In this document: one piece after another, positions 3,111-18,214 of the stretch | How the letters are laid out: each line of letters opens with the position of its first letter | Position numbering within the stretch: the first letter of the stretch is position 1 | DNA from: a virus | Virus record (IMG/VR): IMGVR_UViG_3300048025_000003 | Coordinates: 1-20,992 of that record | Reading direction: 5' to 3' (one strand) | Length of the DNA stretch: 20,992 nt | Translations under genes and position numbers: made by a program | The notes under the pieces: generated by a model | Told to the model about the DNA's origin: nothing | What the model saw: the letters and a program-made list of their open reading frames with translations, nothing else | Databases searched by the model: none

Positions 3111-4603
3111 TGGCGTGGTACAACAGAATATTGGGCGTTAATGAGCCTAAGAAGAAAAAAAGACAAGCATATAGAAGAAGCTATACTGGTGCGAACACTG
3201 GTAGACTTTTTGCTGATTTTGTTACTACATCAACCAGTGCTGATGCTGAGATAAAAGACAACATAAGAATATTAAGAGATAGAGCAAGGGAGTTAGCAAG
3301 AAACGATAGCTATATTGCAAGATACCTTAACCTGATGGTGTCCAATGTTATCGGTAAGCATGGCATAAGAGTTTCTAGCAAAGGTCGTGATGACAATGGT
3401 TCATTAGACATTGCTGGAAACCAGCTCATTGAAGATGCTTGGAAGGAATGGGGTAAGGTTGGTAATTGCACAACTAATGGAAGATTATCATTCTTAGACT
3501 GTCAAAAAATATTTATTGAATCTCTTTGTAGAGATGGAGAAGTATTAGTTAGAAAAATCAAAAAGAAGGATTCGCCTTTTGGTTTTGAATTACAGTTTTT
3601 AGAATCAGATCATTTGGATGAAAATAAAAATGATATTTACAAAGCTACTGGCAATCGTATTAAGATGGGTGTAGAAGTAGATAAGTATGACAAACCAGTT
3701 GCTTATCACTTATTTAAAGACCATCCATTTGATAGAGTTTACTTAGCTCAGGCACAACACATTAGAGTACCTGCTGATGAGATTATCCATGCTTACCTAC
3801 CTTCTAGGGCAGAACAAACTAGAGGTGTTTCTTTGGTTGCTACAGCAATGGCTAATGTGAAAATGTTAAATGGTTATTTAGAAGCAGAAATAGTTGCAGC
3901 TAGAGTTGGTGCATCTAAAATGGGTTTCTTTACTTCACCTGATGGTGATGGTTATGTTGGTGATGGAGAGTATGAGGATACCTTCAACCCAACAATGAAC
4001 GCACAAGCTGGGGTCTTTGAGCAGCTTCCACAAGGTATGGATTTCAAAGCCTTTGACCCTACACATCCAACATCTGCTTTTGATTCTTTTACAACTAGCG
4101 TGCTGAGAAGCATTGCTTCAGGTTTAAATATTTCTTACCACTCATTAAGTAATGACCTTACATCAGTAAATTACAGCTCAATAAGGCAAGGTGCTTTAGA
4201 AGATAGAAGTATGTATCAGATATATCAGCAATTTGTTATAGATCATTTTGTAGACCCTATCTTTAAATCATGGTTAGAAATGTCTATATCAAATGGTTAT
4301 ATAAACTTACCTATGAGCAAAGTGGATAAATTTTCAAAATCAATAAATTACATACCAAGAAGTTTTGCTTGGATTGACCCATTAAAAGAAATGCAGGCAA
4401 ATGTTATAGGTTTGCAGAATGGAACTCTTACTTACGCAGATATATCCAGTAGTTATGGTAGAGATACAGAAGAATTATTTGAACAACATCAAAAAGAAAT
4501 AGAACTAGCCAAACAATATGATATTGAACTAGCATATCAACCATTTGGTCAAAAGAACCCAGTAGATGCAAAGATACAGGGCGGAGATGACGAAGATGAG
4601 TAA
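3110..4603 (+). CDS. Portal protein, lambda gpB family
   Basis: A 497-residue portal of the lambda type, forming the dodecameric ring at one capsid vertex through which DNA enters and to which the neck attaches. The N-terminus is basic (EPKKKKRQAYRR), followed by the family pattern LRDRARELARND and YIARYLNLMVSNVIG (about 54-83). The conserved segment SNDLTSVNYSSIRQG near 346-360 matches the 'SxDxxxVxYSSxR' region of lambda portals. The C-terminus is acidic (GGDDEDE). Length is close to lambda gpB (533). The ATG overlaps the preceding stop by one base, and the 3' end overlaps the next gene by eight bases, both consistent with coupled translation. Confidence 0.93.
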   Translation: MAWYNRILGVNEPKKKKRQAYRRSYTGANTGRLFADFVTTSTSADAEIKDNIRILRDRARELARNDSYIARYLNLMVSNVIGKHGIRVSSKGRDDNGSLDIAGNQLIEDAWKEWGKVGNCTTNGRLSFLDCQKIFIESLCRDGEVLVRKIKKKDSPFGFELQFLESDHLDENKNDIYKATGNRIKMGVEVDKYDKPVAYHLFKDHPFDRVYLAQAQHIRVPADEIIHAYLPSRAEQTRGVSLVATAMANVKMLNGYLEAEIVAARVGASKMGFFTSPDGDGYVGDGEYEDTFNPTMNAQAGVFEQLPQGMDFKAFDPTHPTSAFDSFTTSVLRSIASGLNISYHSLSNDLTSVNYSSIRQGALEDRSMYQIYQQFVIDHFVDPIFKSWLEMSISNGYINLPMSKVDKFSKSINYIPRSFAWIDPLKEMQANVIGLQNGTLTYADISSSYGRDTEELFEQHQKEIELAKQYDIELAYQPFGQKNPVDAKIQGGDDEDE

Positions 4604-7154
4604 ACCAACTCAAAGCATGAAGTCAGAGGCTAGAAAAGGCTTAGATTGGCGTAAGGAGCATGGTAGAGGTGGAACTAGAATTGGTGCTGAAAGGGCAAAT
4701 CAAATTCTAAATGGTGAAAACCTGTCTGATGAAACTATCAAGAGGATGTATAGTTTTTTTAGCAGGCATGAGGTAGACAAGAAGGCTCAAGGATTTAGAC
4801 AAGGAGAAAAAGGCTACCCATCTAACGGAAGAATAGCATGGGCATTATGGGGTGGAGATGCTGGATTTAGCTGGTCAAGAAAGTTAGTTAATCAAATGAA
4901 AGACGATAGAAGTATTGAGCAAAGAGGAACAGAAGATACTCTAAGAGAAAAAGCCAGCGAACATAATAAAGATGTTGGTGATAATCCAGCAAAAAGAACT
5001 AGCTATTCTACATTACAAAAAGTTTACAACAGAGGTATTGGTGCATATAAAACTAATCCTTCAAGTGTTAGACCTAATGTTTCTTCAAAAGAACAATGGG
5101 CAATGGCACGCGTTAATAATTTTTTACGAGTCTTAAGGACTGGTAAATACAAGTCAGGGAAGCATGATACTGATCTGTTACCTGAAGGACATCCTTTATC
5201 AACTAAAAACAAGGAGAAATCTATGAATAAAGAAGATAGACATATCCTGAATGTGAGTGAAACTGATGATAAAGTTATCGTTGAATTTGCGAAGCATGAG
5301 GATGTAGAACATGAAGGTGAAGAATTAGAGACAACTGATGAAGTGTCTATGACTGAATCAAGCGAAGAGGAAAGGAAAGTAATTGATATGCCTATGAAAT
5401 ATAGAACTATTGATCTGTCCAAACATTCTTACCTTGATGAAGAAAATAGAGTGGTTCGTGTAGGCGTTTCTAGTGAAGAGCCTGTTGAAAGAAGTTTTGG
5501 TATGGAAGTGCTGGGACATTCTGCTGATGATATAAATATGGAGTTTATAAACTCAGGTAGAGCACCATTATTGCTTGATCATGATATGACTAAGCAAATT
5601 GGTGTGATTGAAGAATTCAAACTAGATGAGACTGCTAAAAGGTCTTTAGCAGTAGTCAGATTTGGAAAATCTGCTTTGGCTCAAGAGGTGTTTGAAGATG
5701 TAAAAGATGGGATACGGATGAACATATCGGTAGGGTATCGCATTGATAAATTGGAACGATATGAAAGCAACAACGAGACTTATTACAAGGCAAAATGGAC
5801 TCCAATGGAGGTTTCCTCTGTAAGTGTTCCTGCTGACCAGTCAAGACTAGTTGGTGTTGGTCGTTCTGAAGATAAAAATAATATTAACTTTAAGGAGATT
5901 ATAATGTCAGAAAATAAAGACATAAATATAGAAGAAGTTAGAACTCAAACTATTGACGAAGCTAAAGCTGAATTTAAAAGAAACTCAAAAGAGATCATAG
6001 ATTTAGCAGCTAGACACAATAAAAGAGATTTAGCTGACAAAGCCATTTCAAATGGTATCTCTGTTGAAGAATTTAGAGGCGTATTATTAGAAAATATTTC
6101 TAATGACACTCCTTTAGAAACTCCATCAGAAATTGGAATGAGCAAAGAAGAAGTTAGAGATTTTAGCCTAGTAAAAGCAATCAGAGCTATGGCTAATCCT
6201 TCTGACAGAAAAGCACAACAAGATGCAGCATTTGAATTTGAATGTTCTGCTGAAGCTGCAAGACAGTATGGTAAAGATGCTCAAGGTATCATGTTGCCTG
6301 CTGATGTCCTAAGAACTTGGGGCAAAAGAGACTTAAACACATCTGATGACTCAACTCTAATCGCTGAAGATTACAGAGGAGATTCATTCATTGATGTATT
6401 AAGAAACGAATCTTCAGTAATGCAAGCTGGAGCAACAATGCTTAGAGGATTACAAGGAAATGTTGTAATACCTAAGAAAACCGCTGCTTCATCTGCTGGT
6501 TGGATTGCTACAGAAGGCAACCCTGCTGCTGAAAGTGAATTTACTGCTGGTTCAGTAACAATGTCACCAAAAGTAATCGGTGCTTTCACTGATGCAACAA
6601 GACTATTGTTACAACAATCATCATTAGATGTTGAGAACTTAATCAGAGATGACCTAACAAAATCAATCGCTACTGCAATTGACTTAGGTGCTTTAACTGG
6701 TTCAGGTTCAAGTGGTCAGCCAACAGGTATTGCTAATACTACAGGTATTAACACTACAACTTTTGCTGCTGCTAACCCAACATGGGCAGAAATCGTAGCA
6801 ATGGAATCTGCAATCGCTAATGACAACGCATTAAGTGGTTCTTTAGGTTACATTTGTAGACCTGCTGACTTTGGTACTTTAAAAACAACTGAAAAAGCTA
6901 CTAATACAGCTCAGTTTGTTGTTAATCCTGATAACACTATGAACGGATATAATGTTATTAGAAGTAACCAAGTAACAAGTGGAGATTTCTACTTTGGTAA
7001 CTTTGCAGACTTATTAATTGGTATGTATGGTGGACTAGATATTACTGTTGACCCTTACGCATTATCAACTTCAGGTGGAGTAAGAATTGTTGCTCTACAA
7101 ACTGTTGATGTAGCTGTAAGACACGCAGTATCATTCTGTAAATCAAGCGACTAA
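4596..7154 (+). CDS. Accessory domain - HK97-type prohead protease - major capsid protein, one reading frame
   Basis: An 852-residue frame without stop holding three blocks. Residues 1-100 (KGLDWRKEHGRGGTRIG, then NGRIAWALWGGDAG) and 136-200 (KVYNRGIGAYKTN, EQWAMARVNNFL, LLPEGHP) are two conserved phage domains of unknown role; the second resembles what I recall as DUF5824. Residues 210-436 are a U35-type prohead protease with H329 (LLLDHD) and S378 (NISVGY), 49 residues apart as in HK97 gp4. Residues 437-852 are an HK97-fold capsid protein with an N-terminal delta-like scaffolding part. I chose ATG 4596 (GGAG nine bases upstream, MSKPTQ start) over ATG 4566 or 4587. Strong Shine-Dalgarno/ATG pairs at both internal joints suggest the parts are also made separately. 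Confidence 0.9.
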   Translation: MSKPTQSMKSEARKGLDWRKEHGRGGTRIGAERANQILNGENLSDETIKRMYSFFSRHEVDKKAQGFRQGEKGYPSNGRIAWALWGGDAGFSWSRKLVNQMKDDRSIEQRGTEDTLREKASEHNKDVGDNPAKRTSYSTLQKVYNRGIGAYKTNPSSVRPNVSSKEQWAMARVNNFLRVLRTGKYKSGKHDTDLLPEGHPLSTKNKEKSMNKEDRHILNVSETDDKVIVEFAKHEDVEHEGEELETTDEVSMTESSEEERKVIDMPMKYRTIDLSKHSYLDEENRVVRVGVSSEEPVERSFGMEVLGHSADDINMEFINSGRAPLLLDHDMTKQIGVIEEFKLDETAKRSLAVVRFGKSALAQEVFEDVKDGIRMNISVGYRIDKLERYESNNETYYKAKWTPMEVSSVSVPADQSRLVGVGRSEDKNNINFKEIIMSENKDINIEEVRTQTIDEAKAEFKRNSKEIIDLAARHNKRDLADKAISNGISVEEFRGVLLENISNDTPLETPSEIGMSKEEVRDFSLVKAIRAMANPSDRKAQQDAAFEFECSAEAARQYGKDAQGIMLPADVLRTWGKRDLNTSDDSTLIAEDYRGDSFIDVLRNESSVMQAGATMLRGLQGNVVIPKKTAASSAGWIATEGNPAAESEFTAGSVTMSPKVIGAFTDATRLLLQQSSLDVENLIRDDLTKSIATAIDLGALTGSGSSGQPTGIANTTGINTTTFAAANPTWAEIVAMESAIANDNALSGSLGYICRPADFGTLKTTEKATNTAQFVVNPDNTMNGYNVIRSNQVTSGDFYFGNFADLLIGMYGGLDITVDPYALSTSGGVRIVALQTVDVAVRHAVSFCKSSD
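5211..5225 (+). promoter_or_regulatory. Internal ribosome-binding site and start for the protease part
   Basis: AAGGAG at 5211-5216 lies six bases before ATG 5223-5225, which is in frame with the long capsid-operon reading frame. The ATG falls exactly between the accessory N-terminal block and the prohead protease. Initiation here would give a 643-residue protease-capsid protein without the N-terminal 209 residues. The match and spacing are among the best in the window. Confidence 0.6.
5223..7154 (+). CDS. Prohead protease (with capsid read-through), nested in-frame product
   Basis: Starting from the internal ATG, the first 227 residues are a serine protease of the HK97 gp4 (U35) type that cleaves scaffolding or delta regions during head maturation. 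In this numbering the catalytic His is 120 and the Ser is 169. The flanking 'GRAPLLLDHD' and 'VKDGIRMNISVGY' blocks are typical. Residues 2-60 are acidic and Ser/Thr-rich (for example EHEGEELETTDE), probably a linker or propeptide. No stop codon separates it from the capsid part, so it should be made as a fusion and released by its own cleavage, or be a minor product. The nested start resembles the lambda C/Nu3 arrangement. That this start is used is inference. Confidence 0.5.
   Translation: MNKEDRHILNVSETDDKVIVEFAKHEDVEHEGEELETTDEVSMTESSEEERKVIDMPMKYRTIDLSKHSYLDEENRVVRVGVSSEEPVERSFGMEVLGHSADDINMEFINSGRAPLLLDHDMTKQIGVIEEFKLDETAKRSLAVVRFGKSALAQEVFEDVKDGIRMNISVGYRIDKLERYESNNETYYKAKWTPMEVSSVSVPADQSRLVGVGRSEDKNNINFKEIIMSENKDINIEEVRTQTIDEAKAEFKRNSKEIIDLAARHNKRDLADKAISNGISVEEFRGVLLENISNDTPLETPSEIGMSKEEVRDFSLVKAIRAMANPSDRKAQQDAAFEFECSAEAARQYGKDAQGIMLPADVLRTWGKRDLNTSDDSTLIAEDYRGDSFIDVLRNESSVMQAGATMLRGLQGNVVIPKKTAASSAGWIATEGNPAAESEFTAGSVTMSPKVIGAFTDATRLLLQQSSLDVENLIRDDLTKSIATAIDLGALTGSGSSGQPTGIANTTGINTTTFAAANPTWAEIVAMESAIANDNALSGSLGYICRPADFGTLKTTEKATNTAQFVVNPDNTMNGYNVIRSNQVTSGDFYFGNFADLLIGMYGGLDITVDPYALSTSGGVRIVALQTVDVAVRHAVSFCKSSD
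5892..5906 (+). promoter_or_regulatory. Internal ribosome-binding site and start for the capsid part
   Basis: AAGGAG at 5892-5897 lies six bases before ATG 5904-5906, in frame with the protease and located at the protease/capsid boundary. A TAA at 5891-5893 overlaps the Shine-Dalgarno but is out of frame, the usual appearance of a gene joint in separately encoded relatives. Use of this start would allow much more capsid protein than protease. Confidence 0.65.
5904..7154 (+). CDS. Major capsid protein, HK97 fold, nested in-frame product
   Basis: From the internal ATG the product is 416 residues, the normal size of a free-standing HK97-type capsid protein. The first ~75 residues are charged and helical (EEVRTQTIDEAKAEFKRNSK), like the delta scaffolding domain that the protease removes. 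The body has the family's recognisable order: YRGDSFIDVLRNESSVMQAGATML, then GWIATEGNPAAESE, FTDATRLLLQQSSLDVEN (read in short blocks), GSGSSGQPTGIANT, and a C-terminal GGVRIVALQTVDVAVRH. It ends with a TAA at 7152-7154, 22 bases before a hairpin. Capsid identity is clear. Independent initiation is inferred from the Shine-Dalgarno, the size and the need for hundreds of copies per virion. Confidence 0.7.
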   Translation: MSENKDINIEEVRTQTIDEAKAEFKRNSKEIIDLAARHNKRDLADKAISNGISVEEFRGVLLENISNDTPLETPSEIGMSKEEVRDFSLVKAIRAMANPSDRKAQQDAAFEFECSAEAARQYGKDAQGIMLPADVLRTWGKRDLNTSDDSTLIAEDYRGDSFIDVLRNESSVMQAGATMLRGLQGNVVIPKKTAASSAGWIATEGNPAAESEFTAGSVTMSPKVIGAFTDATRLLLQQSSLDVENLIRDDLTKSIATAIDLGALTGSGSSGQPTGIANTTGINTTTFAAANPTWAEIVAMESAIANDNALSGSLGYICRPADFGTLKTTEKATNTAQFVVNPDNTMNGYNVIRSNQVTSGDFYFGNFADLLIGMYGGLDITVDPYALSTSGGVRIVALQTVDVAVRHAVSFCKSSD

Positions 7155-9183: not shown

Positions 9184-9522
9184 ATGTCAGTTATAGATAA
9201 CGCAAAAAAACATTTTGACAGCTTAGAAACTAGAATTATAGAAGTCCCTGAATGGGGTGATGATGAAGATAATCCTTTAAAGATTTATTGTAAACCAATA
9301 ACCCTTTCAGAGACTTCTAAATTTATGAAACTAGCTCAAGATGATGATGTTCAGTTATTGGCTTATGTTTTAATATATAAAGCATTAAACGAGGCTGGAG
9401 AAAAGTTATTTACAATCGCTGATAAGAAAACCTTATTGGAGAGGGTTGATAGAGATGTATTAATTAGAGTTTCTAGTGAGATGATGAACAATGTCTCGCA
9501 GGAAGAAGTTAAAAAAAAGTAA
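9184..9522 (+). CDS. Tail assembly chaperone, gpG-like (unshifted product)
   Basis: A 112-residue protein equivalent to lambda gpG, which coats the tape measure before tube assembly and is absent from the virion. It shows EWGDDEDNPLKIYCKPITLS (about 23-42), the typical beta start of this family, followed by helices (SKFMKLAQDDDVQLLAYVLI and DRDVLIRVSSEMMNN). It ends EEVKKK at an eight-A run directly followed by the stop TAA (9520-9522). The stop sits immediately after a slippery heptamer, so most ribosomes should finish here and a minority continue in the -1 frame (next entry). Confidence 0.88.
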   Translation: MSVIDNAKKHFDSLETRIIEVPEWGDDEDNPLKIYCKPITLSETSKFMKLAQDDDVQLLAYVLIYKALNEAGEKLFTIADKKTLLERVDRDVLIRVSSEMMNNVSQEEVKKK

Positions 9523-9671
9523 TTGAAGATAAGCAGCTATACATAAGATATGCACTAGCTGACAAACTAAACAAAACCTTAGCTGAAATTGAAGAGATTA
9601 CAGTAGAGGAGTTTCAAGGATGGTTGGCTTATCTTGAAATAAAGGAAGAAAGAAATGGGAGCACTAACTAA
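9184..9671 (+). CDS. Tail assembly chaperone extended by -1 frameshift, gpGT-like
   Basis: Shifting one base back at A_AAA_AAG (9513-9519) continues as GTA ATT GAA from 9519 and stays open for 50 codons to TAA at 9669-9671, giving a 162-residue protein. The added part contains LYIRYALADKLNKTLAEIEE and TVEEFQGWLAYLEIKEERNG. This is the alpha-helical pattern ('RYALADxL', 'EFxxWxAYxEIexER') of gpT-like chaperone extensions. The second frame has no start codon suited to separate translation and overlaps the tape measure start by 17 bases. Frameshifted chaperones of this kind are a widely conserved feature of long-tailed phages, and the shifted product recruits tube subunits. The shift itself is inferred from sequence. 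Confidence 0.85.
9500..9561 (+). promoter_or_regulatory. Programmed -1 frameshift signal
   Basis: The heptamer A_AAA_AAG (9513-9519) is the same slippery sequence used by E. coli dnaX. It is preceded by AGGAAG (9500-9505), seven bases upstream, which could act as a Shine-Dalgarno-like stimulator. It is followed immediately by the zero-frame stop. A possible stem pairs CAGCTA (9534-9539) with TAGCTG (9556-9561), 14 bases after the heptamer, but it has only six pairs and a 16-base loop. The heptamer and the open -1 frame are strong evidence; the stem is weak. Confidence 0.8.
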
Positions 9672-12739: not shown

Positions 12740-15700
12740 ATGGCTAATCCTTTTGTAACATTTTTTAATTGGGTTGTAGCTACTTGGAAGACTGCTGATA
12801 CTCTAGGGAAAATAAACATGGTGCTTACAGCAGTAACTCTTGCTGTTGGTGTTAAAGGCTTTATGCAAGCTAGGCAGATGATGGCTAAAGGCCAAGATAT
12901 CTTAGCTAACAAAACTTCTGCTGGTGGCAAACTTCCTGTAATTTATGGAACTCGTAGGGTTGGTGCACAGATCATTTATATGGATGTATCTGCTAATGAC
13001 TCAAGAGATTTGTATGTAGTTTATGCCTTATCAGTTGGTGAGTGTGATGAAATACTTGGAAGAACTATTGAGCTGGATGGCAATCCTTTAACAGATTATG
13101 CAAGATTTAAGGATGGTGGTTACATTGGTTCAGATAAAATATCATCAGGTGCTTATTCTTTAAATACAGTCTCGCAAAATGGAACTGGTATAGATGCAGG
13201 TGCTGGTGGTTTTGGCTCTAGTCCTACACAAAAATATAGATATGTTATGAATCTACATCATGGAGCTGCAACACAAACAGCAGACCCTATGCTTGTTGCT
13301 TCTATGCCTAATTGGACTTCTGCACACAAACTAAATGGTGTTTGTTATATAGCCGCACATTATGGCTATGATAAAGAGGGTATGTGGAAAGGAGTTCCAC
13401 AACTAACAGTTCAGGTAAGAGGTAAAAAAGTATTTGACCCTAGAGATACAAATCAAACCTTTGGAACTGTATCTACTTACGAATATTCAGATAATCCAGC
13501 TTTAACCTTTTTAGATTACATAACTAATAATGAATATGGTAAAGGTTTAACTCAGTCACAAATAAACATGAGCACATTTACTGCTGCTGCCAATGTTTGT
13601 GATACACAGGTTGATCAACCTTATTTTAATGGCTCAACACAATCTCTTACTTGGTCAGGTAACGCTGGAGATGACTTTATAACCATTGGGGGAACTGACC
13701 CTAACACAAACTGGTGGCAAAATAAGATTGGAGAAGTAGTAGATATTAATGATGCAAATGGCAATCTCATTGTAGATGGTAAAGAAATTAAAGATGTACA
13801 GAGAAATGGATTTTACGATCAAAATGATGAATACATTGTATATATTGATGACACACTAGGCTCAACATATTCTTCACAAACAGGCTCTTCTTTAGTTAAA
13901 GTAAAAAGATTTCATTGTAATGGCTATTTAGATGCTAATAAGAATGTCATGGATAATGCAAAAGAGCTTCTTGCAAACATGAGAGGTATCTTTCTTTATA
14001 TAGATGGTAAGTATGAATTATCAATAGAAGACACAGGAACATCAACATTTAGTATCAACGATAATCACATAATTGCTGATGCTGGTATATCAGTTGATTA
14101 TGGCAACAAAGACAAAAAAGCAAATAAAGTTATAGTTGAATTTTTTAATGCCAATAAAAGATATGAATTAGATACAGCTACAGTTTTACATAATGCAACG
14201 CCTGAGTATTATTCAGATGATGGTGATGAGATATTGGAAATAAAAGCTGAGTTCCCTTATATAAGCGACCCTTACATAGCCTACAACATGGGTAAGGCAA
14301 TCTTAACTAGAAGTAGAAATCAGACTACTATGCAGTTCTTAGGAACTCCTGAGATGTATAAATTAAATGTGGGAGATATAGTAGATTTAACTTATGCAGG
14401 TTTAGGATTTTCAGGAAAAGTTTGTAGAGTTGAAGCATTAGAATTGCAATCTAATGGTTTGGTTGCAGTTAGTTTAATAGAATACTTTGATGTCTATACA
14501 TGGGAAGTACCACCTCAAGAACCAGTAGAAGAGTTAGCTAATTTACCCTCCGCTTATGCAGTTAAAGCTCCAACAGGATTATCATTCACTGATACTGATT
14601 CTAGTTCAACAGGTAGACCATTCTTATCTTGGAATGAACCAACAGATTTTCCTAACTATCAATATAGAATCAATGTTGTAGACAGTTCTAGCAATCAGGT
14701 TTTAAATAGAATAGTAGATGTAGAGAATTGTGATCTTAACTTCTTGCCTGTTGATACTAATTACGTTGCTAGCGTTACTTCACTTAATACATTAGGTACA
14801 GAATCATCTCCAGCGACTTTAACCTTTACTATTGGTGATGCTCCTACAGCAACTGCTGATATTAAAGATGATGCAATTGTTACTGACAAGATAGTAGATG
14901 ATGCTGTTACTGATGCAAAAATCAATTCATTATCTGCTGATAAGATTACAGCAGGAACTATTGATGCTAGTCAGATAACAGTCACTAATTTAGATGCAGA
15001 CAATATAACCTCAGGTAGTATAGATGCTTCAGTTATTACAGTTACTAACCTAGATGCAGACAATATAACTTCAGGTACTATTGGTGCAGATAAAATAGAT
15101 GTAACAAACCTTTCTGCTATATCTGCTGATCTTGGTTCTATTACAGCAGGTGATATGAATATAGGCTCAGGAAACTTTACTGTTTCTTCATCAGGTTTTA
15201 TGAGTGCAACTGGTGCTACTATATCAGGTGGTATTACAGCTACTTCACTAAATGTAACTAACGCCACTGTTACAGGAACTTTAGATGCTAGTGTTATTAC
15301 GTTAAATAATGAACCTTTAGATGATGTTTTAACCTATTCAGAAGTTGGTGGTATTGGTTTACTAACTCTTAATGAGGGAGCTGCTATTGATGGTGATTTT
15401 GTTGTAGCTGGTAATTTTGAAGCTACAGGATCACAACCTGATCTAATAGTTGGTAAAGTTACTGGAATAGCAAGTGATACAGTACAAGCAGATGCAATAC
15501 TAAGAAGTTCAACAGGTAGTGGTGGTTTCAGAATACAAGCAGGTTCAGGAAATACGCAAGTTGTTGGCTTGGTTTATGATGCTGTTGGTGGTACAACCTT
15601 ATCAGCAGATGGTGGTGCAAGTGGCACATTTAAGATTAATGCAGATGGTGCTTTAGCTGTAACATTTGACTCATCACAAAACGCAACCTTCACTGGAGAG

Positions 15701-18214
15701 GTTACAGCAGATGCTTTAGGATTACCCTCTAATACACCAAGTACAACAACTAACAAACTTTATAACGTAGGTGGTTCTTTATACTTTAATGGTTCTGCTG
15801 TTGGTGGTGGTGGAGCTGGAGACATTACTTCAGTTGCAGCAGGTACTAACCTCAATGGTGGTGGTACTTCAGGTGCTGTTACTCTTAATCTTGATAATAC
15901 GATCTCAATAACAGGAACAGTAACAGCAACACAATTCTTAGCTTCAGGTGGAGACAGTACACCTTCAGGAACTACTTTTAACAATGTGTTTAAAGGTGTT
16001 AGTTCATATAGAACTGCTTATTTTGATGGTAATGGAAGTAATTGCAGTGTTTGGTGGGGTGTAGGCAATAACCCTCATGCAGCACTTGATACTACTGATG
16101 GAAATTTAGCAACTTGGGCAAATGATTCTGCTGGAACTTGGCGTAAGATTACAGAGCATACTGCTAGTGGTTTAAATATTACAACTGGTGGTCTTTTAGT
16201 AGGTTCAAATTATGTAATAGATAGTTCTCGTAACCTAACCAATATAGTTAATTTAAATGGTTCTGCTGTATCAAGCTATTGGAAAAATAGTGGTTCTTGG
16301 CTTGGAGATCTAGGAAGCAATGGATATACGCGTGAGTATGGTTTAAGTATGACTGGTAGTTCAGAGTTTGTAATTTTATCAAAAAATGGTCAGGGTTCTA
16401 CTTTAGTAGATGGTCAATACATATCTTATGAGTCTGCAAATGGATTTTTTGGGTCTTACAACTCATCTTATGGCAATGCTTCAGGGATAAGAGCAACTGC
16501 TGCAAATACAGTAAGTGTTATGCAACTTGATGGGGGTACAGCAAATTTAGCAGTAACTGGTACTTTATCTTCAGGTGCTATAGATTCTACAGATGGTTTT
16601 ATGACCTTTGAAACTTCAGACATAAATGGATATGCGAGATTTACTGCTGCAAATGGCTCGGCACAATTAGGCCTATTTAGAAGTGGCAGTTCTGCTGGAG
16701 GTATGTATTTGGGATCAGATTCGGCTGGTCTTGAATTTAGAAATTCAGGATTTGCAGTAAGAGCAACTTTAAGTCCTACAGGTGTATTTAATGTAGTCAA
16801 CGCCTATCAATTAAATGGCACTACAATCGTAGATCCCTCTCGTAACCTAACTAATATAGGAACTATATATTCAGGAACAAGTTTTTATCTTGGAGCTTCA
16901 AATAAAACTAGAATTAGTAGTGATGATAATGGAGAGGTTGGTTTAAATTATGCAAACACATCAGGTACAGCAACTACAACTCTTGGTATTTATAACAACA
17001 CAACAAAAACTATAAGCCTTAACAGAAATGGAACTATAAATTCAGGTGCAATTAACAGCACTGGCGTAGTTTCAATGGTTACAAGAGCTGAAATACAAGG
17101 GAATGGAGGTTGGGCATATACAAGGTTGTACAATAGTGGGGCAACCATGTGGGATATTGCAGCCAACCCAAGTGATAATTCTTCTGCTTTACAATTTAGA
17201 CCAAGTGGCAGTGGAACAAATGCTTCGCTTTTATCCACTTCAGGTAACTGGACTATAAATGGAAAAGTGTCTGCAACTGAATATGATTTGCCTTCAGGTG
17301 GAATGTTGGATTGGGCAAATGGAGATGCAAGAATAATAGAAGGCTTGGTAAATAACTACTCTTTATCTTTTCAAACTTGGGATGGTTCTAATGTTAGTAC
17401 AGCACTAAGACTTGATGGTGATAATACCGCTACTTTTACAGGTAACACATTTCTTAAAAATACAAAATTTTTAGGTGGTAATAGCTACAATGAAAATATT
17501 AGATGTAATGCTGCTGCTAATGATTATTCTTCTTTCGTTCTTGGTGCAGTCAGTGGAGATTCAGGAACAGGTACAGGACAGTGGACACTTGTAAGATATC
17601 CAAGTGCAGGGCATGGAAACAAATTTAGCATAAGACATAGCAGCACGGATGCTCTTGTATTTGATACAAGCAGTGCCGCAACCTTTACAAGCAGTGTTAC
17701 AACACCATATTTAAAAGTTGGAGCCAACTTTGGGAACTATCCAGTTTCAATTAGTACAGCTCAAAGGTATTGCATTGGTTTTAGAAATACAGGTGCTACA
17801 AATGGTGCAACAAATTATCCTTGGTTTGTGCATGACTCTGATAAATTGATAGTACACTGGAACGCAATTGGAGATAGGTGGAGTTTAGATCAAAGCGGAA
17901 ATACTGTTAATTCAGGAAACGTAACAGCTTATTCAGATGAAAGATTAAAAACTAATATACAAACATTAGACAGTAAAAAGGCATTACAAATGCGTGGTGT
18001 TAGCTTTATTAAAGATGGTGTTGAGGGTAGTGGTGTTATAGCCCAAGAAATAGAAGAAATAGCACCTGAATTAGTGATAACAGCAGATGATGAAATGGGT
18101 ACTAAATCAGTAGCTTATGGCAACTTAGTTGGATATCTCATTGAAACTGTTAAAGACCAACAAAAGCAAATAGATGAATTAAAGCAGAGGTTAGATAATG
18201 ACTCTAGCAACTAG
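12740..18214 (+). CDS. gpJ-like tail tip protein fused to a long fibre with peptidase S74 chaperone
   Basis: A 1824-residue host-recognition protein. A hydrophobic stretch (about 26-43, INMVLTAVTLAVGVKG) precedes KLPVIYGTRRVGAQIIYMDV and other gpJ-type blocks (MRGIFLYIDGKYELSIEDTG, near 414-433). A fibronectin-III-like domain spans about 606-703 (APTGLSFTD, FLSWNEPTD, YQYRINVV). Three 20-residue repeats run 734-793, then a beta-rich fibre with two 'VxDxSRNLTNI' blocks (near 1160 and 1362). The C-terminus is an S74 intramolecular chaperone: YSDERLKTNI at 1731-1740 with the Ser1732/Lys1737 pair, spaced five apart as in endosialidases, then a helix (TVKDQQKQIDELKQRLD). Self-cleavage before Ser1732 would release 93 residues. 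Much longer than lambda gpJ (1132). AGGTGGGG lies upstream of ATG 12740. Confidence 0.9.
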   Translation: MANPFVTFFNWVVATWKTADTLGKINMVLTAVTLAVGVKGFMQARQMMAKGQDILANKTSAGGKLPVIYGTRRVGAQIIYMDVSANDSRDLYVVYALSVGECDEILGRTIELDGNPLTDYARFKDGGYIGSDKISSGAYSLNTVSQNGTGIDAGAGGFGSSPTQKYRYVMNLHHGAATQTADPMLVASMPNWTSAHKLNGVCYIAAHYGYDKEGMWKGVPQLTVQVRGKKVFDPRDTNQTFGTVSTYEYSDNPALTFLDYITNNEYGKGLTQSQINMSTFTAAANVCDTQVDQPYFNGSTQSLTWSGNAGDDFITIGGTDPNTNWWQNKIGEVVDINDANGNLIVDGKEIKDVQRNGFYDQNDEYIVYIDDTLGSTYSSQTGSSLVKVKRFHCNGYLDANKNVMDNAKELLANMRGIFLYIDGKYELSIEDTGTSTFSINDNHIIADAGISVDYGNKDKKANKVIVEFFNANKRYELDTATVLHNATPEYYSDDGDEILEIKAEFPYISDPYIAYNMGKAILTRSRNQTTMQFLGTPEMYKLNVGDIVDLTYAGLGFSGKVCRVEALELQSNGLVAVSLIEYFDVYTWEVPPQEPVEELANLPSAYAVKAPTGLSFTDTDSSSTGRPFLSWNEPTDFPNYQYRINVVDSSSNQVLNRIVDVENCDLNFLPVDTNYVASVTSLNTLGTESSPATLTFTIGDAPTATADIKDDAIVTDKIVDDAVTDAKINSLSADKITAGTIDASQITVTNLDADNITSGSIDASVITVTNLDADNITSGTIGADKIDVTNLSAISADLGSITAGDMNIGSGNFTVSSSGFMSATGATISGGITATSLNVTNATVTGTLDASVITLNNEPLDDVLTYSEVGGIGLLTLNEGAAIDGDFVVAGNFEATGSQPDLIVGKVTGIASDTVQADAILRSSTGSGGFRIQAGSGNTQVVGLVYDAVGGTTLSADGGASGTFKINADGALAVTFDSSQNATFTGEVTADALGLPSNTPSTTTNKLYNVGGSLYFNGSAVGGGGAGDITSVAAGTNLNGGGTSGAVTLNLDNTISITGTVTATQFLASGGDSTPSGTTFNNVFKGVSSYRTAYFDGNGSNCSVWWGVGNNPHAALDTTDGNLATWANDSAGTWRKITEHTASGLNITTGGLLVGSNYVIDSSRNLTNIVNLNGSAVSSYWKNSGSWLGDLGSNGYTREYGLSMTGSSEFVILSKNGQGSTLVDGQYISYESANGFFGSYNSSYGNASGIRATAANTVSVMQLDGGTANLAVTGTLSSGAIDSTDGFMTFETSDINGYARFTAANGSAQLGLFRSGSSAGGMYLGSDSAGLEFRNSGFAVRATLSPTGVFNVVNAYQLNGTTIVDPSRNLTNIGTIYSGTSFYLGASNKTRISSDDNGEVGLNYANTSGTATTTLGIYNNTTKTISLNRNGTINSGAINSTGVVSMVTRAEIQGNGGWAYTRLYNSGATMWDIAANPSDNSSALQFRPSGSGTNASLLSTSGNWTINGKVSATEYDLPSGGMLDWANGDARIIEGLVNNYSLSFQTWDGSNVSTALRLDGDNTATFTGNTFLKNTKFLGGNSYNENIRCNAAANDYSSFVLGAVSGDSGTGTGQWTLVRYPSAGHGNKFSIRHSSTDALVFDTSSAATFTSSVTTPYLKVGANFGNYPVSISTAQRYCIGFRNTGATNGATNYPWFVHDSDKLIVHWNAIGDRWSLDQSGNTVNSGNVTAYSDERLKTNIQTLDSKKALQMRGVSFIKDGVEGSGVIAQEIEEIAPELVITADDEMGTKSVAYGNLVGYLIETVKDQQKQIDELKQRLDNDSSN
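14939..15118 (+). repeat. Three tandem 60-bp (20-residue) repeats in the J-fibre gene
   Basis: Three in-frame copies of a 20-residue unit lie at residues 734-753, 754-773 and 774-793: DKITAGTIDASQITVTNLDA, DNITSGSIDASVITVTNLDA and DNITSGTIGADKIDVTNLSA. The period is exactly 60 bases. The hydrophobic/turn pattern suggests a trimeric beta-helix shaft, the usual structure of such fibre repeats. Copies differ mainly at third codon positions, so the repeat is old or selected at protein level. Confidence 0.9.

Follow-up and report, generated by a model that had tools for sequence, protein, structure and literature searches.

In phage lambda C/Nu3, and likewise in Mu I/Z, a short C-terminal product is translated from an in-frame start inside the protease gene; this nested product serves only as scaffold, the capsid being encoded by a gene of its own. 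Internal initiation also yields three C-co-terminal products (IF2 alpha, beta and gamma) from the single frame of infB in E. coli. Fusions of a prohead protease with a capsid protein have already been described, as far as the accessible text of the reports goes (PMC8508860, PMC8601537, PMC6536676), and no internal start is reported for such fusion genes in the accessible, largely open-access literature. Within the same scope, no published report was found in which a protease gene harbours a nested capsid precursor and a further, third layer.

The gene described here lies in a stretch of 20,992 bases (hereafter the window) of the IMG/VR virus record IMGVR_UViG_3300048025_000003. It carries an N-terminal module, a protease and a capsid protein in one frame, and the boundaries between them are called joint 1 (accessory/protease) and joint 2 (protease/capsid). 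Its features are as follows.

4583..4586, + strand: Shine-Dalgarno (SD) motif GGAG for the full-length start, within the 3' end of the portal gene (sequence; -6.9 kcal/mol against the anti-SD)
4596..7154, + strand: fused gene for N-module, prohead protease and capsid (frame, profiles and same-frame fusion in relatives)
4596..5222, + strand: N-terminal accessory module, codons 1-209, with phrog_2859 (about 4-105) and DUF5824 (131-192) (profiles)
5211..5216, + strand: SD motif AAGGAG of joint 1 (sequence, codon alignment, SD statistics)
5223..5225, + strand: ATG of joint 1 at codon 210, from which a protease-capsid product of 643 aa is proposed to start (alignment, SD statistics)
5223..5903, + strand: prohead protease module, Peptidase_S78, with candidate triad H329, S378 and E405 (profiles, invariant columns)
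5892..5897, + strand: SD motif AAGGAG of joint 2 (sequence; function conserved among relatives)
5904..5906, + strand: joint-2 ATG, codon 437, proposed start of a 416-aa capsid precursor (alignment, SD statistics)
5904..6347, + strand: delta region at the front of the capsid precursor, scaffold-like; the protease is proposed to remove it, and its boundary is approximate (R4C alignment; low-confidence model segment 577-596)
6348..7151, + strand: mature capsid protein with the HK97 fold, about 268 aa (Phage_capsid at 595-849; Foldseek)

Module order and start signals of the window gene

The gene occupies 4596-7154 as a single frame of 852 codons (4596-7151) plus the stop codon, and the preliminary description was right that it runs uninterrupted. 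An alternative upstream ATG at 4566 is possible, although an SD stands before 4596 alone (-6.9 kcal/mol, against -2.7 for 4566). By profiles, phrog_2859 and DUF5824 lie below codon 210, Peptidase_S78 in codons 210-436 and Phage_capsid in codons 437-852. With its match to phrog_617 (E 3.8e-148, residues 268-850, profile positions 9-621 of 626), the window protein belongs to the S78 protease-capsid fusion family; against the protease/MCP fusion model NF045541 it scores 140.3 bits, over residues 280-545 only, below the cut-off of 525 bits. The protease is recognized by PF04586 (Peptidase_S78; 27.8 bits against a cut-off of 21), and H329, S378 and E405, which are unchanged across 44 aligned sequences, probably form its catalytic triad. 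The capsid part is matched by PF05065 (Phage_capsid) with an E value of 2.5e-42, and its top Foldseek match is the R4C capsid 8gta (E 1.8e-20), HK97 structures being matched as well. In the AlphaFold model of the fused protein (mean pLDDT 74.8), the modules form separate folds connected by low-confidence linkers at 103-110, 208-216, 232-277, 424-445 and 577-596, with joint 1 inside linker 208-216 and joint 2 inside linker 424-445.

The spacing between AAGGAG and ATG is exactly six bases at both 5223 and 5904. The placement of these pairs at the accessory/protease and protease/capsid joints, as read from the letters alone, agrees with the profiles and the model linkers, and the figure of 416 aa given for the product that would start at 5904 is right. 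The gene has 24 in-frame ATGs; the SDs in front of those at 5223 and 5904 are the strongest of all (-9.0 and -8.5 kcal/mol), and both surpass the SD of the gene's own start (-6.9) and those of 18 further putative starts checked across the window (-7.4 at best). The SD-ATG pairs at the two joints of the window gene are beyond chance.

Elsewhere in the window, positions 12740-18214 encode a tail protein of 1824 aa that ends in what may be a self-cleaving intramolecular chaperone domain (DERLKTNIQTL...GVIAQEIEEIAPELV), and a short ORF at 9184-9655 lies before the tape measure gene, the usual place of frameshifted tail assembly chaperones.

The protease-capsid joint in the fusion family

A first IMG/VR scan, made with two search peptides that overlap the joints and therefore biased towards them, gave 80 loci. 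Later scans with proteins of ep3, VP882, RcCronus, CRP-821, S-CBS3 and CRP-811 brought this first set to 454 loci; several of the scans behind it used joint-overlapping peptides. Nearly all 80 first-scan loci have a single frame, with one in-frame stop each in L009 and L071. Wherever both protease and capsid were found, they lie in one frame: in 443 of 443 loci of the expanded set, and in 519 of 519 overall. Since the fusion is seen in every relative with both halves, an assembly artefact or a recent joining of genes is ruled out. As an independent set, GTDB genomes were scanned with one capsid and one protease pattern, both lying outside the joint, and 76 prophage fusions were obtained.

When the fusion genes were clustered at 75% identity, an in-frame ATG was found within the protease-capsid linker of 58 of the 59 clusters, and the best linker ATG had a mean SD of -5.2 kcal/mol, compared with -2.4 at 776 other in-frame ATGs of the same genes (p 1e-13). 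If the first linker Met is picked while ignoring the SD, anti-SD affinity reaches its maximum at -4 to -9 from it, and no comparable peak occurs within 45 nt on either side. The prophage fusions behave in the same way: a linker ATG is present in 75 of 76, an SD of -5 or stronger precedes 76% of linker ATGs as against 15.6% of 1041 in-frame controls (p 1.6e-26), and the positional peak is as in the first set. Counting genes or clusters, 133 of 135 linkers hold a Met/ATG where 110.6 would be expected, the two without one being L356 and L516. Moreover, mRNA structure from -30 to +21 is weaker at the joint ATG than at other in-frame ATGs (-6.6 against -12.8 kcal/mol, uncorrected for linker composition), and this holds in 93% of genes.

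Synonymous shuffles that preserve protein and codon usage, 300 per set and pooled, were never as strong as the observed joint-2 SD (0/300 in each set; z -6.7 in the first set and -5.0 in the prophages). Taken gene by gene, the same test is weak (p <= 0.05 in 5 of 58) because single genes give little power, whereas the pooled test is clear. A chance SD is ruled out by the control ATGs together with these shuffles, and the codon choice at joint 2 is, by these comparisons of sequences, selected beyond the need of the peptide. In the codon alignment of first-scan loci, the SD varies among subgroups (AAGGAG, GAGGTA, AAGGTG, AAAGGT, AAGGAA), with some SD and an ATG always kept, and the joint peptide and the position of its Met shift as well (KNNINFKEIIM, KQTINNIEVITM, KQINNTKVRIM, LNKGIIM). 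The residues upstream of the linker Met vary freely, and those downstream are conserved in both the roseophage-type and the cyanophage-type groups (e.g., M-S/T-E..D-I/L-x-A-V-x-A-E-A).

On the tree of the 59 clusters, the SD is present in 10 of 10 members of the roseophage-type clade and absent in 15 of 19 of the cyanophage-type clade, whose members retain the joint-2 ATG behind a weak or absent SD. The start of the next gene carries an SD in 19% of the cyanophage-type clade compared with 67% elsewhere; since most neighbouring starts there also lack an SD, its absence at the joint fits the habit of the hosts and not the loss of a start. A few phages of proteobacteria, FoX3 and Alexa among them, likewise have a weak or absent joint-2 SD. 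Conservation of a joint-2 start over the whole protease-capsid fusion family is well supported by this comparative evidence.

A few loci are irregular. L009 (codon 223), L071 (codon 332) and L413 have one in-frame stop in the protease part of an otherwise intact fusion; such stops would spare only the joint-2 product, and they may be sequencing or assembly errors. L046 and L071 are two different fusion-gene copies on one contig of 65,678 bases (IMGVR_UViG_3300050343_000089), which is probably a chimeric assembly or several joined genomes.

The first joint and the N-terminal module

In first-scan loci, the joint-1 ATG is present in every alignment row that covers the position, always behind an SD ending in GAG, in genes that use GAA about four times as often as GAG (5337 against 1309). 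The joint-1 SD averages -6.8 kcal/mol over 13 clusters, where shuffles average -3.5 (z -5.6) and control ATGs -2.0, and the sequences upstream of the Met are unlike each other (KNKEKSM, KERDM, IEGRTM, SKRGEDM). A motif conserved just after this Met (R/K-H-I/V...ET) served as the marker of joint 1, and a Met directly precedes it in 151 of 165 marker-bearing loci. Genes apparently starting near joint 1 (L288, L289, L292, L298-L317) were excluded as evidence, as their frames continue upstream.

The remaining 14 marker-bearing loci, in four clusters, have lost the joint-1 Met and are all fused. According to the preliminary description, nesting would be refuted by close relatives that are still fused but have lost the SD or the ATG, and for joint 1 such losses do exist; on the other side, CRP-811-type genes, which have a Hva1_TUDOR domain (PF11160) upstream, carry an SD-ATG one module further up, at the front of that domain, in 43 of 44. 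A replacement start is thus seen for part, not all, of the 14 Met-less loci (L274 is an exception). SDs at joint 1 are also mostly absent from the cyanophage-type group, and in a wider test on 36 clusters with an N-module, SDs lying between that module and the protease exceed shuffles only modestly (z -2.7). From these patterns, a joint-1 start is well supported in the roseophage-type clade, to which the window belongs, and not family-wide. The earlier proposal of internal initiation and nested co-terminal products accordingly stands on different footings at its two joints, with comparative support across the family for joint 2 and in this clade only for joint 1.

It may be asked whether only joint 2 is a working start, the joint-1 SD-ATG being little used and the full-length protein delivering the protease. 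Such an arrangement would suit the family-wide conservation of joint 2, the confinement of joint 1 to one clade with loss in 14 loci, and the many family members that have no N-module at all. It is nevertheless unlikely, as codon choice at the joint-1 SD is selected within its clade, the GAG of this SD is invariant in the aligned members, and the CRP-811-type group retains a start one module upstream.

The N-module itself is swapped or absent among relatives. Its phrog_2859 domain opens another head protein, of 661 aa and weakly matching DUF2213, in Vibrio phage 1.122, and a DUF5824-like region occurs in a 934-aa protein of Salinibacter phage 14_5, in both cases ahead of a separate capsid gene. 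Viral structure matches of the N-module include prohead protease, XkdF and portal among their names, and a fold search of the PDB with it returned no match. The N-module goes with head morphogenesis genes. Of the "three capsid-assembly functions" first attributed to the frame, protease and capsid are confirmed by profiles, and the claim was overstated for the N-terminal module. Further exchanges were observed within the set: in L082 and about 43 relatives (L375-L454), the DUF5824 module is replaced by Hva1_TUDOR with its own SD-ATG in front, and in L236, L238, L241 and L249 the phrog_2859 domain is replaced by another N-terminal domain (KISLRNSNYPQFDYDFA...) without a Pfam match, DUF5824 being kept.

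Proposed translation and comparison with known systems

Three ribosome entry points, at 4596, 5223 and 5904, could serve the one frame and would give, respectively, the 852-aa full protein, the 643-aa protease-capsid product and the 416-aa capsid precursor. The precursor, consisting of the delta region and the HK97-fold domain, would be produced in excess from 5904, taken as the strongest site, and the longer products would co-assemble with it via their own capsid domain, so that protease and N-module enter the prohead as minority components. Cleavage by the protease would then remove the delta regions and whatever lies upstream of them, and the shell would consist of subunits of about 268 aa. 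Initiation by ribosomes at the joints, the relative amounts of the products, their co-assembly and the order of cleavage are predicted steps, and internal starts may in this way control stoichiometry. Taken as a whole, we regard this nested three-entry model, in which a single gene gives nested co-terminal products, as probable.

The virion structure of the R4C capsid (8gta), a family member, covers residues 362-629 of a 629-aa frame, with unmodelled residues possible, and its modelled chain begins 173 residues below the joint ATG; the words "protease" and "cleav" are absent from the text of the structure paper. This chain start fits the removal of a delta region from a precursor and is uninformative on the start of translation, because a delta-bearing precursor would be cut whether it arose by an internal start or by proteolysis. 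For the same reason, capsid N-termini produced by proteolysis below residue 437, which had been put forward as contrary evidence, do not discriminate, the start at residue 362 of 629 being expected wherever translation began. In the Anaerolineae split relatives L529, L533 and L534, the capsid and delta region form a gene of their own, and this free capsid gene, of 458 aa in L529 and L534, counts in favour of the nested model. In the latter two, the gene upstream of the capsid looks by eye like a ClpP-type protease in place of the S78 protease.

Alternatively, only the full-length product might be made and then cleaved as a polyprotein to separate protease and capsid, the SD-ATGs being relics of once-separate genes. 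The modules are indeed separate folds that recur elsewhere as separate genes, and the R4C chain does begin below the joint. Yet the fusion is universal in the family and the SD-ATG is kept at deep divergence while peptide and motif shift, and codon choice at the joint is still under selection where relics would be expected to decay. In addition, HK97 proheads contain 415 capsid and about 60 protease copies, and those of D3 contain 540 and about 90 (PMC12749128). If translation never began inside the fused gene, every capsid subunit would bring a protease with it, instead of the ratio of about 1:6-7; such copy numbers are out of reach for a strict 1:1 fusion and were counted for internal starts. 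On these grounds a polyprotein is very unlikely. That the SD-like motifs are translational pauses at domain boundaries that aid folding, the ATG being incidental, would suit their location in unstructured linkers and is hardly credible, as it leaves unexplained the in-frame ATG at start-site spacing in 133 of 135 genes or clusters, the weak mRNA structure at the joint, and the cyanophage-type ATG kept without an SD among neighbouring genes that mostly lack one too.

Extended beyond the window gene, the nested three-entry model would make the whole S78 fusion family translationally nested: a start before each module would fix the relative amounts of capsid, protease and accessory module, starts would be kept at module boundaries while N-modules swap, and the protein of 600-970 aa annotated as "major capsid protein" would in fact be the minor product. 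The case for this extension is evenly balanced. If nesting is true, it would explain how phages with fused genes avoid packing a protease with every shell subunit, and annotations of where the main capsid product begins would need correction for many phages and prophages, whether marine, cyanobacterial or proteobacterial. The comparative signature could also be used to find nested genes in other fused phage proteins.

Compared with described systems, the window gene resembles the phrog_617/NF045541 fusions, MD8 gp5, the Rhodobacter RcC phages and the Paracoccus prophages in having protease and capsid in one frame, and differs by an extra N-terminal module with a further start. In MD8, an unrelated S14 protease-capsid fusion, a strong SD-ATG lies inside the protease at codon 185 and another near its end at codon 220; these were not counted as evidence. 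The l5 gene of Lactococcus phage c2 is likewise a protease-capsid fusion, with AAAGGAGAACAAGAACAAATG at codon 131, where the protease appears to meet the delta region, and its record starts the mature protein at codon 206; however, it was not retrieved as a relative in the searches, has no N-module and has a longer spacing of about 10 nt. With the HK97 and D3 operons the window shares the order of portal, protease and capsid and probably an N-terminal delta domain, which in HK97 and D3 is cut in the prohead; in those phages the protease and capsid genes are separate and their ratio is set by separate translation. The infB gene differs as a cellular translation factor without fused separate functions. 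The fusion family has a conserved in-frame internal SD-ATG, as in nested genes of the lambda C/Nu3 type, from which the window gene would differ in that the nested product from 5904 holds the capsid domain and is the capsid precursor itself, and in that a third layer is added. The proposed nested fusion gene is thus a variation on known fusions and on the two-layer nesting of lambda C/Nu3.
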